Below are positions 32,931 through 62,700 of a DNA stretch of 64,000 bases, in pieces; position 1 is the stretch's first letter; every line of letters begins with the position of its first letter. The notes beneath the pieces are model-generated. The model was not told the DNA's origin, made no database searches, and worked only from the letters and a program-made list of their open reading frames with translations. Position numbers and translations under genes: made by a program. Source of the DNA: a virus; IMG/VR virus record IMGVR_UViG_3300025379_000003, positions 62,001-126,000 of that record; one strand, 5' to 3'.

Positions 32931-34670
32931 TTACTGAGGTGGAGCTTCGCCAGCATCACCACCAGGAGAAGGACTTACCGATCCATCAGTAGGAGCATTT
33001 TCATCGCCTAGTTCAGGGGGAGGAGTGTTATCACTTAAACTGCTTAAATCTCCAGACATGCCATTAGCAGTAATACCTGCTGTACGAAGTTCTGCGCTGG
33101 CACTTAATTGTGTGTCATCGTCGATGTTTTCTTCTTTCCACAGTGTTTCATTTTCTGTGACTTCCTCAGTGGTCAATCCCAAGAATCGTTTTAAGGCAAA
33201 TCTCTTGGATATCATGGGAATTGCCACCATGGTATTGAATGTGTTAACACGGGCGGTATCCATTTCTGCTTGACGATAACTCGCAAAGTTTTGTGGAGGA
33301 TTAAATTTAAGATCAAAAATATTGCTGTCTATGTTGATGCCTTTGTTATGTAGATACAGTTTGAACTCAAGATCAAACGGTTCATTCATCAACGATTGTA
33401 GTCGTTCGCAGTATTTGTTGAATCGTAATTCTTGTATATAGGCTGTCCCGACTCGTCCGTCATTGAAGTTGCTCCCTCCATCATCACTACCAGTTGGTAG
33501 GTAAGAACTTGGAATACGCAAAGCTCTAAACAGTTTATTAGTAAAGTACTTAAGGTCATCAATTTCTCCTAAATTAGTACCACCAGGAAGAATTTCAACT
33601 TTACTACCACGACCTTCTGCTGTGGTTGGGAAGAAATAATCTTCGTTGACGCTTAGTGGATTGTAACTTGCGTCAATAACACTTTGACTTCCGCCAGTAG
33701 TACTGGGGATTCTGCGTTGGTTTACTTCATTTTTAACACGTTCAACAAAGCTCATGGCCAAGTGACTGGGCATGTTACCCACATCAATATAAAACACACG
33801 ACGCTCTGGAGCACGTTGTATACGATAGATTAGAATAGCATCTTCTAGCAGTTCTTTTTGTTTGAACACTTTAAAGATACTTTCCATTAAACTGTTGCCA
33901 AATGGGAAGTTACTGTCCAAGCCTTCACTCATTGAAATGTGAATTACATGACGAGCATCTATGGCATATTGGTTTTGATTTTGGCTAAATCGACTACTAT
34001 TTGCGGTGGTTGGATAGGAACCTACCATACCCCTACTACCCCCGGCGCCTCCCTGTCCAGTGCCATAAGAACCGCCAAATTGACTGCCGCCGCCGTTGAC
34101 ATTGCTGGGTTGAATAGCAGTTGTGGCCAGTGTTTCAAAGTTAGGATTGAAGTCACGGATGTGATATTGCTCAGGCTTCTTACCTTCACTTTCATTAACA
34201 ATAATCTTGTCTACCTTGGCAGGATCCACATACATCCAAGCCTGTGTTTCTGGGTCACGAACAAAGAAACTATCGCCATACTTGAAGGCATTGCGTACAA
34301 TTTTAAAAATACGAACAGGGAATTTGTTTAACTTACACCACTGTTGTAGGTATTTTTTAATAATCTTAACTTCAGTATTTGTTGCTTGATCTTTAAAATA
34401 GATCTGGAATGGTGTACCGTTTTCTTCGTTGGTTTGACTACAGAATTCAGCCAAAATATCAAAGGCGGCATTGACTTCACTGTCGCTGTCCATTGTATCA
34501 TACTGTCCGTAACGCTCTAAACGATTAGGATGTCCAGCATACACATCAGGAAGATAACTGCTGTAATTGGTACGGCTAGGGTTACTGCTACCCGCTGTAC
34601 TCATGCTACCACTCACAGGGCTAAGTTTGCCTGAAAGATTTACAGGGGTAAAGTATTTTTTCCAGCTCAA
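32931..34670 (-). CDS. 20: Portal vertex protein gp20
   Basis: A 579-aa protein with the T4-type portal layout: ERYGQYDTMDSDSEVNAAFDILAEFCSQ at about 53-80, KFPVRIFKIVRNAFKYGDSFFV near 115-140, IHISMSEGLDSNFPFGNSLMESIFKVFKQKELLEDA near 240-280, RAPERRVFYIDVGNMP near 287-302, then LPGGTNLGEIDDLKYFTNKLFRALRIPSSYL. It forms the dodecameric ring through which DNA is packaged and on which the prohead assembles. T4 gp20 is 524 aa. The start is TTG at 34670, chosen because an AAAGGAGCG SD sits 7-9 nt upstream. A Gly/Ser/Thr-rich insertion at about 195-225 and a Pro-rich acidic C-terminus are likely disordered. Confidence 0.95.
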   Translation of the reverse strand: MSWKKYFTPVNLSGKLSPVSGSMSTAGSSNPSRTNYSSYLPDVYAGHPNRLERYGQYDTMDSDSEVNAAFDILAEFCSQTNEENGTPFQIYFKDQATNTEVKIIKKYLQQWCKLNKFPVRIFKIVRNAFKYGDSFFVRDPETQAWMYVDPAKVDKIIVNESEGKKPEQYHIRDFNPNFETLATTAIQPSNVNGGGSQFGGSYGTGQGGAGGSRGMVGSYPTTANSSRFSQNQNQYAIDARHVIHISMSEGLDSNFPFGNSLMESIFKVFKQKELLEDAILIYRIQRAPERRVFYIDVGNMPSHLAMSFVERVKNEVNQRRIPSTTGGSQSVIDASYNPLSVNEDYFFPTTAEGRGSKVEILPGGTNLGEIDDLKYFTNKLFRALRIPSSYLPTGSDDGGSNFNDGRVGTAYIQELRFNKYCERLQSLMNEPFDLEFKLYLHNKGINIDSNIFDLKFNPPQNFASYRQAEMDTARVNTFNTMVAIPMISKRFALKRFLGLTTEEVTENETLWKEENIDDDTQLSASAELRTAGITANGMSGDLSSLSDNTPPPELGDENAPTDGSVSPSPGGDAGEAPPQ

Positions 34671-34702: not shown

Positions 34703-37102
34703 TTAATGTGGCATTTGATTGCCACTTAGATTTTTTAATTCAGATATCTGTCTATCAGTATTGTCTACAGTTTCTCTCATAAGAGACCGAATATCATTCA
34801 TAATGATATTTAACTGTTTTAGTGATTCTCCAATAGCTTTCTGGCCTATGCTCGATTCTATCATTGCTGTTAAATTTTCGTTGGTAATCACGTTACCACT
34901 GCTGTTAGTAGATATAATTTCTGGGCCTTTTTCACCAACTAGATAAGATCCGGGATTTATTGGACCGCCCGATGCTTTACCTTCTGGTGTTTTGACCTTT
35001 GCTGGATCAAATTGATCATAAGCAGTTTCGCCAATTATTCTACCCAACGGTCCTGCTAATAAGGGTAATAACAAGGATAATCCAAAAGTTTCGGGAGCTA
35101 GAAGTGCAGCGGCGGTGTATAATCCTACTTCTAATCCAGTTCCTACTCTATTACGATTTTGTTGTCTGGCTGCTTCAGCATCATCAATTTGTTTTTGTTT
35201 TCTTGCTTCCTCGATAGCATTACTTTCTTCATATCCGCCGTATATTCCTAAAGCTGAGCCAATCCCTACACTACCTAGTCTGCCTTTATTAAATCTACTC
35301 TTAGGTTTGTTTTCAGAACTGCCACCTCCACCACCTTCTGGTGTTGGAACACCACCCCCAGGTTTAAACCCTTCCCTAATTGCCACCCACATGGGATTGG
35401 CAAAAGTACCGCGTTCTAATGCGGCATTGGCTAGTCCACCTAATCCGCCACCTGCTGATTTTACAGCACTGGCTATGTTAAATGCTTTCCATGCTAGGTA
35501 GGCCAATCCCACTTCCTCTGTTAGATGCTTTAATGCTTGTCCATGCTGAAATACCCAATCAATGGCTGCGGCTATTTTTGGTGTAGCGTCATCTAGTGCT
35601 TTGACAAATCTTTCTTGTATGGCTTGAAATAAACTATTGAATGTTGGCTCTATTTTTTCATTAAGTAAAACTAGGGATTTTACAACCTCTTGGTTGGCCT
35701 CGTTCATTTTTTGTTGAGTTTTTGCGGCCGCGGCTGCTTGACTGCTGGCGGCTTTATCGTTCTTATCAGCAATCTCACCACCTCGATCTAACCAATGTTC
35801 ATGAGCAGTTAGGTTGTTGTTTAGTGCTATTACTTGTTGTTTAAGACCTGCATTGACAGCTGGTGCCAACTCTGTATTAGCCAATGATTGATAAAAGGCA
35901 TTTTCCCCCATATTTTTAGCAGTTTCAGCTAGATAGTAGCCTGCAGCATGCGATTGTTTTAGCAGTTCTGCTTCGCTGATATTTCTATCTCTGGCTAGCG
36001 CCGCTTGTCTACGTTGCTCTGCGTAGAAACTGGCATTTACACCAGCAAAAAGTTGAAGACCTTTTGTCACTGGTGCTAGGTTCATGGTCAATGCCATCAT
36101 GTTCAACCCAGCTTCTTCACCATATTGTGATGTTTGTGAACGCACCAAAGCTAATTCTTTATCCGCTTGTGCTCTTTCACTTTCACCAGTTAATCTTAAC
36201 TGGGTCAAATGTGCTTGGAACGCTTCTTGCTGAGCGATTTTTTTCTGTTCATCTTCTAACTGCTTTCTATTTTTGCCTGTTAGTTCAGTGAGTATGGCTT
36301 GCTCTTGGATATAAGCGTGTGTACCTTCAGCAACAGCATACATGGCATCCTTGCTGGCTAATTCAGCTTTACTTACTCCACCTCGAATCTGCATGTATGT
36401 TAATTCGTTGTCAGTTAATTCTTGAAATGTATAACCTAGGGCTCTTAGATTTTGTCCAAAATCACTTTTGATAAAACTATTACTAAAATTAAAAAACGCC
36501 GTAGCACCATCATTGACATTACCGCCAATCCTAGCAAACGCTTCTTGATTATTTTGAATAGTAGAGGTAAATTGTTCAAGTGTTAGATAGGATTTGGCCT
36601 GTGCTATTCGCATGTCATCCAAACTGCCACTGAAATTAACACCCGAAGCAGATATTTTTTGATATGTGTCTAAATTAGTTTCTTGAAAACTGGCTATTTT
36701 TCCAAATAACTCAGCTACTGCGCCTAATGGTCCAGGCAATTTGGCAAGAGCATCAAATACATCAGAAGTCTTAGCAGTACCGTCAGCCATCTTGGCACCC
36801 AGCGCTTCCACTTGTCTATATGTTTGTTTAGTTGCTTGCCATGCGTTATCCACCGCATCGCCCAAGAGCTTCATACCCACAGTGGTTTGACTCGAAGCAC
36901 TGCCTACATTTTTAATTTGCCCAAGAGCTTCGTCAGTGGTAGATTTTGCTACTCCAGACTTGTTTGCCAGCGTTCTTAAAGTTGCCAGCTGTTCTATGTT
37001 TGATGTGGCTGTGGCTGCCAACAGAGCCTTCAGCGTGGCCTCGGTAGCGGCATTGTTTAATTCTACTTCTTCATTGCCTATTCGGCCGTACACGTCTGCC
37101 AT
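34703..37102 (-). CDS. Tail tape measure protein (799 aa)
   Basis: A long, Ala/Gln-rich, mainly helical protein. Residues 1-450 are predicted helices with FxxLAKLPGPLGAVAELFGKIA; a Gly/Pro-rich linker lies near 565-590; residues about 660-690 (GLYTAAALLAPETFGLSLLL) form a hydrophobic segment. The C-terminal part has the hallmark GGPINPGSYLVGEKGPEIIS...NVITNENL motif of tape measure proteins. It sets tail length and is probably ejected with DNA; it would be the functional counterpart of T4 gp29 (590 aa). It is the first gene of the minus-strand head operon and is divergent from the gp26-like gene. A candidate late motif (AATAAATA) lies 63 nt upstream. Confidence 0.85.
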   Translation of the reverse strand: MADVYGRIGNEEVELNNAATEATLKALLAATATSNIEQLATLRTLANKSGVAKSTTDEALGQIKNVGSASSQTTVGMKLLGDAVDNAWQATKQTYRQVEALGAKMADGTAKTSDVFDALAKLPGPLGAVAELFGKIASFQETNLDTYQKISASGVNFSGSLDDMRIAQAKSYLTLEQFTSTIQNNQEAFARIGGNVNDGATAFFNFSNSFIKSDFGQNLRALGYTFQELTDNELTYMQIRGGVSKAELASKDAMYAVAEGTHAYIQEQAILTELTGKNRKQLEDEQKKIAQQEAFQAHLTQLRLTGESERAQADKELALVRSQTSQYGEEAGLNMMALTMNLAPVTKGLQLFAGVNASFYAEQRRQAALARDRNISEAELLKQSHAAGYYLAETAKNMGENAFYQSLANTELAPAVNAGLKQQVIALNNNLTAHEHWLDRGGEIADKNDKAASSQAAAAAKTQQKMNEANQEVVKSLVLLNEKIEPTFNSLFQAIQERFVKALDDATPKIAAAIDWVFQHGQALKHLTEEVGLAYLAWKAFNIASAVKSAGGGLGGLANAALERGTFANPMWVAIREGFKPGGGVPTPEGGGGGSSENKPKSRFNKGRLGSVGIGSALGIYGGYEESNAIEEARKQKQIDDAEAARQQNRNRVGTGLEVGLYTAAALLAPETFGLSLLLPLLAGPLGRIIGETAYDQFDPAKVKTPEGKASGGPINPGSYLVGEKGPEIISTNSSGNVITNENLTAMIESSIGQKAIGESLKQLNIIMNDIRSLMRETVDNTDRQISELKNLSGNQMPH

Positions 37103-37185: not shown

Positions 37186-38049
37186 ATGGACCGTAGCACC
37201 ACATTCAACCCCTTGGCAATGTATATGAGACAGCCTAAGATCTACATTAAATTGCCCAGTAATGGGGAATACTGGGCACCCGGAGCTTTGGAAATGCCTG
37301 ACAATGGAGAATTGGCAGTTTATTCCATGACTGCCAAAGATGAGTTATTGCTCAATGTGCCAGATGCTTTAATGAATGGACAGGCCATTGTGGATGTTGT
37401 GGAAAGTTGTATTCCAAATATTAAAAATGCCTGGGAGATACCCAGCATTGACATGGATGTTATACTAATTGCCATAAGATTGTCTACCTACGGTGAGTTC
37501 ATGAACACGCCAGTTACATTTGGCGGCGATGTTGAAATGGAGTATCAAGCGGATCTAAGAGTAATACTAGACGACCTACGTAGACAGATTAAATGGGATA
37601 GTGCCGTAGAAGTTAGCAATGAACTAACAGTGTTTGTTAAACCTTTGATCTATCGTCAGATGACAGAAACTGCTCTACAGACTTTTGAAACACAAAAAAT
37701 AATTCAACTGGCCAACAACGATTCGATCTCTGAAGACGATAAGATCAAGATGTTTAAAGAAAGTTTTAAGAAATTAACTGAATCTACCATAGGTGTTGTG
37801 TCCAAGAGTGTGTATAGGATTGATTCACCACATGGCAGTGTTAGCGATCCTGACACCATCAAAGAATTTATTGACAACATAGATAAGAACACATTCAACA
37901 AGATACAGGATCATCTCAACGAACTTAGAGTAAACAACTCATTAAAACCAATGACTGTTGAAGTTACGGATGAAATGAGAGAAAAGGGCATTACTGGTGA
38001 CACTGTTGAAGTACCACTAACATTCGACGCTTCAACTTTTTTCGGGTAA
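37186..38049 (+). CDS. 26: gp26-like baseplate / tail assembly protein (287 aa)
   Basis: The N-terminus (NPLAMYMRQPKIYIKLPSNG, GALEMPDNGELAVYSMTAKDELLLNVPDALMNGQA, SCIPNIKNAWEIPSID) is the signature of the T4 baseplate protein family represented by gp26. The second half is charged and helical, and the last 40 residues extend towards a TFFG end. T4 gp26 (208 aa) is a baseplate hub/assembly factor. The SD CGGAGAAAAACC precedes the ATG and a perfect late promoter lies upstream. The stop codon follows a T_TTT_TTC slippery heptamer, and the -1 frame continues into a 72-codon ORF, an arrangement like the tail assembly chaperone pair G/GT of lambda. So a chaperone role is an alternative to a structural one. 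Confidence 0.85.
   Translation: MDRSTTFNPLAMYMRQPKIYIKLPSNGEYWAPGALEMPDNGELAVYSMTAKDELLLNVPDALMNGQAIVDVVESCIPNIKNAWEIPSIDMDVILIAIRLSTYGEFMNTPVTFGGDVEMEYQADLRVILDDLRRQIKWDSAVEVSNELTVFVKPLIYRQMTETALQTFETQKIIQLANNDSISEDDKIKMFKESFKKLTESTIGVVSKSVYRIDSPHGSVSDPDTIKEFIDNIDKNTFNKIQDHLNELRVNNSLKPMTVEVTDEMREKGITGDTVEVPLTFDASTFFG
38037..38043 (+). other. Candidate -1 ribosomal frameshift site T_TTT_TTC
   Basis: The heptamer is phased with the gp26-like frame (act-ttt-ttc) and lies two codons before the TAA at 38047. A one-base slip leads directly into the 72-codon ORF without a stop. A 7-bp inverted repeat (CCTTGAC 38066-38072, GTCAAGG 38088-38094) lies 22 nt downstream and might act as a stimulator. 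Confidence 0.6.
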
Positions 38050-38054
38050 GGCTT

Positions 38055-38273
38055 TTGTATCTAGACCTTGACGGCCTCAACAAACTAGTCAAGGGGTTAG
38101 AACAAGATACAGAAGCCTTAAAAGAAGAACTTTTAAGAATTTGTTGGTATATGCGAGGCGGCCTAAGTTACACAGAGAGTCATATGATGACTCCTGATGA
38201 AAGAAAAATTGCCACTAAGATAATTGAAGATAATTTAAAAACGGCTAAAGAAACGCAGATGCCGTTCTTTTAA
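38055..38273 (+). CDS. 51: gp51-like small ORF, probably expressed by -1 frameshift from the gp26-like gene
   Basis: Seventy-two codons in the -1 frame relative to the gp26-like gene, encoding LDLDGLNKLVKGLEQDTEALKEELLRICWYMRGG followed by SYTESHMMTPDERKIATKIIEDNLKTAKETQMPFF. The RICWYMRGGxSYxExxxMxxxER and NLxxxKxxxxPFF patterns match the small protein that follows the gp26-like gene in marine T4-like phages, often labelled gp51. There is no ATG start at the right place; the first usable codon is a TTG 5 nt after the upstream stop with AAGG only 3 nt away. Translation as a C-terminal extension of gp26 is therefore the better reading. It ends 4 nt inside the convergent 291-aa gene, with no room for a terminator. 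Confidence 0.65.
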   Translation: MYLDLDGLNKLVKGLEQDTEALKEELLRICWYMRGGLSYTESHMMTPDERKIATKIIEDNLKTAKETQMPFF

Positions 38274-39145
38274 AGACTCATTCCCAAGAAACGACTGTAG
38301 CCCACATGTTCATTCACAGGATCCACTGACTGTGTTTGTCGTGCCTTGGCAAGTTCCGCATCAGCTTGATCTAATTGAGCTCTTAGCTTCTTACGATCAT
38401 TGTCAGTTTGTAAATTTTTGTAGTAGTTAACTATAGAATTTTGATCAATTGTTTTTTGAGCAGGGGCACTGCCACCCACTATGTTGCCCGTGCCTGCGTC
38501 GTCAGTGCCTTGATTGGCAGGATTTGCTTGGGGCTGACTGGAGGTATTTGTTTGACTGGCTTGCTGTGTTGCGGCAACCTTATTTTTTTCAGCAATTGAT
38601 GCTGAAATAATTTGACTGACCGTCTTATTATCTAAAGGAATATCCTGCTGTCCGTTAGCGTCATCTTCATTGGTTGATAAATGGATATTTGGATTATCAT
38701 CAGCTGGGTGTGCGTTAGGATCATTTAAAGATGCTGCATGAGCACTAGGTGTATTTTGTGGATCCAGTGTAGGATCTTTTCTCTGATTAGCTGGCTGACT
38801 GGCCTTGGTCTTTACGTCTTGGACTAACTTGGCTACTCCGCCAGTTAATGGCAACTGATTAGATTTCATCCAATCAAGTAAGACATTTAAAGTGGGCTGT
38901 TGACTGCCTGTTCTTCCCACATAAGTTTGAAAATCCTTCATCAAGGCATTTGCTTCTTTACCTATTTCTGAAATACCCTTAGCTCTTGCTCGTTGATTAG
39001 GGTTAAATGGGGATATTCTACTTAGCCCTGTTTTTATTTTAGATACAACACCCTGTGGGGTATCACTAGGAGTACTTGCGCTTGCCGCATTGATATCTAA
39101 TTCTGATAATTTTTCACTTTCTAAAATGACATCTGACAAACGCAT
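38270..39145 (-). CDS. Candidate internal head protein with capsid-targeting-like N-terminus (291 aa)
   Basis: No family is recognised with certainty. The first ten residues, MRLSDVILE|S, resemble the capsid-targeting sequence of T4 internal proteins and Alt (for example MKTYQEFIAE), and ILE fits the gp21 cleavage rule (I/L)xE. The rest is Gln/Asn/Ser/Pro-rich and appears disordered between about 120 and 230, with helical parts at 40-115 (NALMKDFQTYVGRTG) and 235-275 (NYYKNLQTDNDRKKLRAQLDQ). It has a perfect late promoter (TATAAATA) 25 nt upstream and the SD AAAGGAA, so it is made late, like a virion protein. I infer packaging into the head and trimming by gp21; a baseplate or tail role is the alternative. 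Confidence 0.55.
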   Translation of the reverse strand: MRLSDVILESEKLSELDINAASASTPSDTPQGVVSKIKTGLSRISPFNPNQRARAKGISEIGKEANALMKDFQTYVGRTGSQQPTLNVLLDWMKSNQLPLTGGVAKLVQDVKTKASQPANQRKDPTLDPQNTPSAHAASLNDPNAHPADDNPNIHLSTNEDDANGQQDIPLDNKTVSQIISASIAEKNKVAATQQASQTNTSSQPQANPANQGTDDAGTGNIVGGSAPAQKTIDQNSIVNYYKNLQTDNDRKKLRAQLDQADAELAKARQTQSVDPVNEHVGYSRFLGMSL

Positions 39146-59700: not shown

Positions 59701-62700
59701 TCAGTGTCTTCAGCAAACAGTCTTGGTAATGTTTATAATCAACAATTGGGCTATAGCATCAGTAAACGTAAGGGATCTAATGTTGTGGTTGTTGGCGCTC
59801 CTGGATTTGTACAAAGCGGAAATTACGGGCGTGTCACAGTATATACAACAAATAATAATGGCGGACTAACTAGAAAATTAGACTATTACCTAAATGAGTT
59901 AAGCGGCGCAGCCAACTCATTAAACAATGACACAGGTTTTGGACAAACTGTAGTCTATGATGATAATGCTTTTGGATCATCAATCTATGGATTGGTATTT
60001 GCTGGAGCTCCAACCGCACAGACTACTAATGGTGTTGTTGATTCTGGTCTAGTAAAGATCAGCAGTATAAATTCTGTAAGTCTTGAAGAAGTTCAGCAAC
60101 TGGTCATTAATAATCCTTCCCCTTCAAACTACGATTTGTTTGGTTCAGGAATATATGTACAAAGAACTTCTACAACAACAAATAAAGTAATGGTTGTGAC
60201 TGCTCCGGGCACAGTCAATACAGGTACAGGAACTCTGAATTTCTATAATTTATCCATCAGTGGTAGTACGGTGTCTGCTACTCTTTTCTACCGACTTGCG
60301 GCTCCTCTTAGTGTTGGTAGCCAATTTGGCTATAGTATTAGCGGTACAGATGACGCATCGTTGATAGCTGTCAGTGTTTTGGGTAATACCAATACACCAG
60401 CATTTGTTAGTATTTTTTCAAATTCTAATGGCTACGCTGTTGCTAATCAGGAGGTTACTGTATCTTTGCCTGCTGGTTCTGGATTTGGACAAAAAGTTCT
60501 ATTATCACCAGATGGAACTTATTTGTTTGTTAGCGCTCCTTATTGTGAAAACTTTGATCGAAGTTATGGTAGTGTGTATGTTTTTGAAAATATTAATGGC
60601 ACATTCTATGAGTCGCAGGTATTAACAAATCCATCTGGAGTTATTGGAGTACATTTTGGTACTGATATAGATATCAATTCAACAAACAATTCGTTGATAA
60701 TTTCTAGTGTCGGATCGGGGGTACATGGGGCAACAACTTTTGATGCTACATCAAAATTTGGCGGGAATACTACATTTGACGCAGATTCTACAAAATTTTA
60801 TGATGTAATTAATAATTCTGGCACAGCATATATCTATACTAGATTGGCAAGTAGATTTGTATTCTCTGAAGAACTTTCACCAGTATCAACAGCAGACGGT
60901 ACTAATTATGGTAAGGCTGTTACTATTGATTCTGATACTGCGCTAGTTGGTGCTCCAGCAATTGATAATTCAACCATAGCAAGTTCTGTGTATCTGTTTA
61001 GTAAGATTGATACTAGTACCAATGGATGGAAATTGCTAAGAAGTCAAAATGATCTTGTTGCTACTGACACTATTCAACGAGTAAGATTGATTAATACATC
61101 AACTGAAGAAATTGTAAATTACCTTGATGTAATCGATCCGCTAAAAGGTCGTATCGCAGGTATGGCAGATCAAGAATTGACGTACAAAATGATTTCAGAT
61201 CCTGCTACTTATTCTATTGGAACTACTGCCAATGCCATTAATACATTGACAAATTGGGCTGACAATCATGTTGGCGAATTGTGGTGGGATTTGAGTACTG
61301 TAAAATACCAATGGTACGAACAGGGCGAAGATACATTTAGAAAAAATACTTGGGGACAAGTATTTCCAGGTTCAAGTATAGATGTTTATGAGTGGGTCGG
61401 GTCTAATCTATCACCTACTGAGTGGAGTGCGTTGGCTGATACTCCTGCTGGTTTAACTTTGGGTGTTAGTGGACAGCCAAAAAATCCAGATAATACCGTT
61501 TATTCTCTAGTACAGTCCTATGACACAGTAACACAAACGTTTAATAACTACAGATATTATTATTGGGTTAAAAATTCAGTTATAGTACCTAATGTTCCAA
61601 ATAGACGAGTCAGCGCATATGATGTGGCACGAGTTATAAAAGACCCAACAGGGTATGGCTTACAATATGCGTCCATAATTTCTCCACATGCCGTGATAGT
61701 TGCTAATGTTGGTGGAGAACTAATAAAGAGTAATATTGATTTAAATATTTCTATTGATACTACCGATAACATTATTCCTAAACACACAGAATGGTTGTTG
61801 CTACAGGAAGGTAATGAGACTTCATTACCTAATGCTCTACTTGAAAAGAAATTATTTGATAGCTTATTAGGCCATGATAGTGTGGGCAATTTAGTTCCCG
61901 ATCCAGCATTAACTTCTAGAACACGATATGGCATAGGTATTAGACCAAGACAAACAATGTTTGTCAACAGATTAAACGCCTTACGAAATTTAATTGAATT
62001 TGCTAATGACATCTTAATTAACAATATTATTACAGGCAGTTATAATTTTATTAATTTAAATGCTCAGGAAGAAATACCGCCTGTATCTTCTAACCTATAC
62101 GATTATACACTCGAGGATACTAATGAACTTGATACAATTGACACATCGTTATTTGTAACCGCTGAACTAACCTGTACAGTATATGATGGGAAAGTAAGAT
62201 CAGTATCTATAACTAACCCTGGTCTTGGATATCTAACTGCGCCAACAGTGACTGTTGATGGTATAGGTACTGGAGCAGTGATCAAGACAGAGATTGATTC
62301 AAATGGTAGAGTTATAAATGCTATAATATCTAACGCAGGTCAAGGCTATGTAGCAACACCTATATTAACAGTTCGACCCTATTCAGTAGTAGTGGTATCG
62401 GATAGTACTTACAATGGCAAATGGGCAATATTTGTACGTGATATTGAAAATAAAACGTGGGTAAGAGCTCGTACTCAATCGTATAATACTACATTATATT
62501 GGAATTATACTGACTGGTCAAGTAGCGACTTTAATAAACACAAGGACTACACCACAACTGTAAACTATGTCTATCAAATTGATTCTTTAGTTTTAAACAA
62601 CGGTGATTATGTTAAGGTTAAAAATAACGGATTAGGCAACTATATTATTTTAGAGTATACTGATAGTAATGTAGGAACATTCAGCAATCACTTTAACATT

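Follow-up and report, generated by a model that had tools for sequence, protein, structure and literature searches.

Does the gp26-like gene of this viral genome encode a single protein, or does its 3' end carry a signal for a programmed -1 frameshift that would yield a second, longer product? The window, by which we mean the whole analyzed stretch of 64,000 nucleotides (positions 62,001 to 126,000 of IMG/VR record IMGVR_UViG_3300025379_000003), had been read as containing such a signal, and the original prediction had further proposed that the gp26/gp51 pair of these phages is a chaperone system equivalent to G/GT of phage lambda. The features at the junction are as follows:

37186-38049, + strand: gp26-like short-form gene (TAC-N-like), 287 aa, based on the open reading frame list, PF12322, and phrog_150
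38037-38043, + strand: slippery heptamer T_TTT_TTC, read directly, in register in relatives
38047-38049, + strand: TAA, zero-frame stop of the gp26-like gene, read directly
38043-38273, + strand: predicted extension in the -1 frame (TAC-C-like), 76 codons followed by TAA at 38271-38273, an open frame conserved in relatives

The gp26-like gene has a slippery heptamer close to its stop

The product of the 287-aa gene matched PF12322 (T4_baseplate) with 39 bits, which is above the Pfam cut-off of 24.5 and bears out its designation as gp26-like, and it matched phrog_150 with an E-value of 7.7e-14. It is the sole PF12322 match in the record of 156,630 bases that holds the window. In a profile comparison, the short-form family of the window matched the gp26/gp51 set with a probability of 97.3 and an E-value of 1.9e-11. 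A tail assembly chaperone family, phrog_1749, was weakly touched by 15 of 45 short forms (best E 0.002). A sequence search of solved structures with the short-form profile and T4 gp51 gave no match at E-values up to 1, and Foldseek with both structure models found no match in the PDB at E <= 0.001. Against viral models, Foldseek gave 32 matches at E <= 0.001, of which the named ones near the top were phage baseplate or hub-assembly proteins, the others being uncharacterized. The HK97 chaperone (2ob9) was found at rank 35 with a Z-score of 5.8 and an rmsd of 4.4 over 100 of 107 residues, where it ties with unrelated chains.

Positions 38032-38049 read TCA ACT TTT TTC GGG TAA, which places T_TTT_TTC in the predicted phase near the end of the gene, with one codon (GGG) between the heptamer and the TAA. 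Among the 26 genes of the window, this is the single in-frame occurrence of the heptamer in 15,684 codon positions. At least 75 codons are open in the -1 frame past the stop in seven of the 26 genes, the gp26-like gene among them, in some cases because the next gene occupies that frame. An open -1 frame past the stop is thus not rare by itself, and the weight of the case therefore rests on conservation in relatives.

The heptamer and the open -1 frame are kept in relatives

Relatives were collected via protein homology, and the heptamer was not used as a criterion. An IMG/VR search with the short form gave 88 loci, the best 80 of which were retained, and from 59 records found by tblastn in a phage collection, we took eight named jumbo phages. 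IMG/VR locus L075 does not reach the stop and was left out, leaving the window, 79 IMG/VR loci, and the eight jumbo phages as the assessed set. All 88 sequences contain T_TTT_TTC in register together with an open -1 frame, and the distance from the heptamer to the zero-frame stop ranges from 1 to 11 codons. The alignment of this junction across relatives, which had been suggested as a check, hence confirmed that both the heptamer and the -1 relation are kept. As the short form of locus L010 is 100% identical to that of the window, L010 is not an independent witness.

In a set of 52 non-redundant representatives (below 90% aa identity), the heptamer codons are NNT TTT TTC without exception, and a G directly follows the heptamer in 51. 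TTT accounts for 404 of the 521 upstream Phe codons in these representatives, yet the last codon of the heptamer is always TTC. The junction comparison over the 52 representatives yields a figure of 10^-39.5, which is illustrative only, as it counts related sequences as if they were independent.

The extension evolves as a protein

After a slip at the heptamer, 76 codons are open in the -1 frame, and the predicted long product comprises 286 + 76 = 362 aa; the 72-codon frame of the original prediction corresponds to the listed 72-aa ORF, which begins at a TTG. Past the stop, the -1 frame is open for 59 to 76 codons in 87 sequences and the +1 frame for 3 to 29 codons; locus L042 lies outside this -1 range, as a contig end cuts its extension. 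For the 41 representatives whose extension has 76 aa (820 pairs), the median pN/pS of the extension was 0.46 in the -1 frame versus 0.88 and 1.29 in the remaining frames, and the mismatch rates at the three codon positions were 0.388, 0.234, and 0.561. Judged by these substitution patterns, the -1 frame evolves as a protein.

Direct searches of Pfam, PHROGs, and NCBIfam with the 76-aa extension of the window gave no match. The alignment of extension members gave scattered weak PHROG matches, with the exception of phrog_18291 (no description), which was matched by 4 of 42 members with a best E-value of 1.7e-36. A structure model of the extension is helical, with a mean pLDDT of 87.8. In the jumbo phages XaC1, RaK2, 121Q, and Munch (L006 to L009), the extensions are 70-71 aa long and lack the CWYMRGG and PFF motifs seen in the window group.

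A covarying stem follows the heptamer

The RNA features downstream of the heptamer are the following, with alignment column n corresponding to window position 38036 + n:

38050-38062, + strand: 5' arm of the conserved stem, beginning 6 nt past the heptamer
38105-38117, + strand: 3' arm of the conserved stem, from the alignment
38066-38094, + strand: inner inverted repeat of 7 bp, pairing 38066-38072 with 38088-38094, the repeat of the original prediction

The 5' arm reads GGCTTTTG..., and the 3' arm starts 42 nt beyond it. In the window, this outer stem extends to a pairing of 38047-38062 with 38105-38120 (-30.5 kcal/mol). The 7-bp inverted repeat that had been noted 22 nt downstream is real, but it is nested in this stronger stem, which had been missed, and it is not the conserved stimulator. 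As relatives fold the loop differently, we rejected the repeat in favor of the outer stem, which is the conserved stimulator.

When the RNA past the heptamer was folded from +3 to +103 nt, the mean z was -3.12, with 40 of the 52 representatives below -2. The 60 nt that had been proposed for folding (+3 to +63) also gave a signal, but a weaker one, with a mean z of -1.32 and 19 of 52 below -2. Over 14 pairs in the 35 sequences that share one register, 92.4% of the cells were formed, versus 34-53% in controls obtained by sliding. The covariation score was 0.197 versus 0.104 +/- 0.009 in shuffled alignments, a value that none of 500 shuffles attained, and 24 cells had changed on both sides of the stem versus 6.2 after shuffling. 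Two of the five covariation measures were reached by shuffles: both-sided change occurred in 5 of 14 pairs, which 25 of 500 shuffles equaled, and the 15 further pair types were reached by 74 of 500. The stem-arm codons AGG, CTT, and GCC are each present in all 35 sequences.

The stem count does not include six of the 41 equal-length sequences (L003, L077, L080, L081, L087, and L088), as these pair in a different register, and several of them fold their own stem at that place. With all 41 sequences stacked gap-free, RNAalifold returned an 8-bp helix in the same columns (-3.0 kcal/mol). In XaC1, RaK2, 121Q, and Munch, the stem of the window group was not clearly seen. Because the heptamer is invariant in register, the extension is conserved as a protein, and a covarying stem follows the heptamer, a programmed -1 frameshift is supported at the level of sequence.

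Gene neighborhood

Upstream of the gp26-like gene, two genes are encoded on the opposite strand:

34703-37102, - strand: candidate tape measure protein, 799 aa, divergent, based on phrog_5062 and phrog_14121
32931-34670, - strand: T4-like portal gp20, PF07230 with E 6.4e-108

The divergent neighbor had been taken to be the tape measure gene. A divergent 799-aa gene is indeed present, but its match to phrog_5062 (tape measure) is weak (E 3.2e-4 over 51 residues); its match to phrog_14121 (virion structural) has an E-value of 4.5e-7. Among the best 80 of the 88 IMG/VR loci, 67 contain a relative of this gene within the retrieved flank, encoded on the opposite strand. Among the 13 without one, ten have fewer than 500 bases of upstream sequence, and L080, L088, and L089 have 3 kb with no match. 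In the named phages, the 799-aa gene matches a counterpart in four of seven, namely Munch, 121Q, XaC1, and RaK2 (E < 1e-5 over 99-132 residues), and the counterpart in Phosso reached E 0.09 only. On the other side, a convergent 291-aa gene (38270-39145, - strand), for which Pfam and PHROG searches gave no match, overlaps the end of the extension with its own end.

Two probable products from one gene and the alternatives

The best reading of this locus, and very probably the correct one, is that one gene gives rise to two tail-assembly chaperones of the G/GT type by a -1 frameshift. The heptamer, the coding extension, and the covarying stem thereby support the earlier suggestion of a G/GT-like gp26/gp51 system, with slippage, slippage efficiency, and the chaperone role being the parts that we infer. 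Most ribosomes would stop at 38047-38049 and produce the gp26-like short form of 287 aa. A minority would slip back by one base on T_TTT_TTC, where the downstream stem, set off by a 6-nt spacer, would hinder the ribosomes, and the slipped ribosomes would read 76 more codons to give the 362-aa long form. If lambda gpG/gpGT is a guide, the role of the short form would be to coat the tape measure protein, and that of the extension to recruit parts of the tail tube or baseplate hub. For T4, separate genes, 26 and 51, encode these two forms.

A lineage-specific variant, which we regard as rather unlikely, would hold that a long-range stem around a variable, folded loop of ~42 nt drives the frameshift, that the chaperone gene and the tape measure gene are transcribed separately, that the ratio of short to long form depends on an RNA element described for no other tail chaperone, and that the extension is possibly a domain without orthology to the gp51 tail.

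The extension could also be a small gene of its own, translated from ATGA or TTG starts by coupling, or by re-initiation, where the stop overlaps. In the window, the -1 ORF had been described as having neither an ATG nor a well-spaced SD, and both the ATG and an SD core are indeed absent from the stretch scanned. Among the 52 representatives, 19 have some ATG close to the junction in the -1 frame, which overlaps the zero-frame stop in nine of them, many have a TTG 8 nt past the first base of the stop, and some records, such as those of Phosso, XaC1, and 121Q, have a small CDS annotated there. Homologues with their own ATG and SD had been named in advance as evidence that would speak against frameshifting. 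The overlapping ATG does occur, but an SD core was found at no start in the scanned stretch of any of the 52 representatives, and all of them keep the heptamer; for the short forms, an SD core is present in 39 of 51. Moreover, the conserved motif R-x-RLL begins 5' of the candidate ATG and TTG codons, and re-initiation needs neither an invariant in-register T_TTT_TTC nor a covarying stem right after it. We therefore consider a separate gene very unlikely.

Still less probable is transcriptional slippage on the T run, by which mRNAs in the -1 frame would arise. The window has a run of six T, phiM12 has seven, and HTVC008M has eight, but six T are short for polymerase slippage. In addition, position 7 is a conserved C, the codon register is fixed, and a covarying stem lies at 6 nt, all of which are ribosomal features, and this explanation was rejected on these grounds. 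That the junction is an assembly error within what is really one ORF, as the homopolymer run might suggest, is practically inconceivable and was rejected, as it is contradicted by the concordant frame break in all 88 sequences, eight deposited phage genomes included.

Comparison with known systems

The proposed frameshift resembles that of lambda gpG/gpGT in the combination of a short and a -1 extended form, in the slippery heptamer close to the 3' end of the short-form gene, and in the location beside a gene that, here, is a candidate tape measure gene. The heptamers differ, the lambda heptamer being G_GGA_AAG, and the candidate tape measure gene of the window, unlike that of lambda, is divergent and lies on the other strand.

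Vladimirov and colleagues reportedly described frameshifting in several T4-like groups, with genes 26 and 51 as the short and long forms of T4. In PMC12846349, Vladimirov, Gautam and Davidson (Virology 2022) are cited for poly-T slip sites in T4-like TAC-N genes, and PMC10885494 cites the same study for T4-like phages that have one short and one longer fused gene in place of frameshifting. The phages of that study, as presented in the citing papers, share with the window a gp26-type short form accompanied by a longer form. On this basis, gp26/gp51-type chaperone frameshifting in T4-like phages is already published in kind (Vladimirov et al., 2022, via PMC10885494 and PMC12846349), and the original prediction was therefore sound but not the first of its kind. 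PMC12846349 also describes the chaperone of Pseudomonas phage Adele and its relatives, which have a conserved -1 extension and a T-rich slip site (GTTTTT) as well, but belong to other phage families and have the gene upstream of the tape measure gene. Titles and abstract openings of the open-access literature on frameshifting with gp26 or gp51 contained nothing that points to the present case, and for frameshifting with baseplate hub assembly, no open-access literature was found.

Viewed from its sequence, the window is a well-supported new member of the frameshifted chaperones of the gp26/gp51 type. It contributes a densely sampled, covariation-supported frameshift signal for such chaperones from a freshwater T4-like lineage, and the sampled jumbo phages have the same slip site. 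In such genomes, small separate or unannotated ORFs after gp26 can be interpreted as C-terminal domains that belong to a longer chaperone. The signal agrees with the view, published according to the citing papers, that the T4 short and long forms are separate genes.

gp26- and gp51-type proteins in T4 and its relatives

PF12322 unites the gp26-like protein of the window with both T4 gp26 and T4 gp51, but in T4 these are products of two separate genes on opposite strands. T4 gp51 consists of a full gp26-like core and a C-terminal tail that matches phrog_634; T4 encodes the short form as gene 26 and the short form plus tail as gene 51. PF12322 was found in 12 of 13 named records, with one match each and two in T4 (genes 26 and 51), and the whole record of cyanophage S-TIM5, unlike the 12 others, gave no match.

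Matches to phrog_634 were obtained in 10 of 14 records, that of T4 lying inside gene 51 and that of Atu_ph07 at an unrelated place (E 0.028); the record of the window, S-TIM5, Phosso, and 121Q gave none. The family also matches in 2 of 14 control genomes. In P-SSM2, S-PM2, HTVC008M, phiM12, phiM9, KVP40, phiW-14, and Vi01, that is in eight of eight, the phrog_634 match lies downstream of the gp26-like gene and in its -1 frame, as derived from the match coordinates, with weak matches in Vi01 (E 8.5e-4) and phiW-14 (E 6e-6). The end of the gp26-like gene contains an X_XXY_YYZ motif in seven of these eight phages, the exception being Vi01. The z-scores of the RNA over the next 100 nt were -4.0 in phiM9, -3.6 in P-SSM2, -3.0 in phiW-14, -2.6 in KVP40, -2.5 in S-PM2, -1.9 in phiM12, -0.3 in HTVC008M, and +0.5 in Vi01.

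The extension of the window had been called gp51-like, a label that fits in a loose sense. Direct searches and phrog_634 gave nothing for it, but its family resembles the gp51-type tails in a comparison by hhalign, a modest similarity with a probability of 76 and an E-value of 2.3e-5 over 33 columns.

A gp51-tail-like ORF in the -1 frame after the gp26-like gene was also observed in Vi01, KpS110, Ds3CZ, phiEa2809, and Vibrio phage D506 (L104 and L123-L126). X_XXY_YYZ is absent from the last 20 codons in these five of six phages, in which a single-codon slip (T_TTC) or re-initiation may take place. The sequence ATT TTC ATT TAA is common to four Ackermannviridae, Vi01 and three others. Moby (L127), the sixth phage of that set, does have TTTTTTC.
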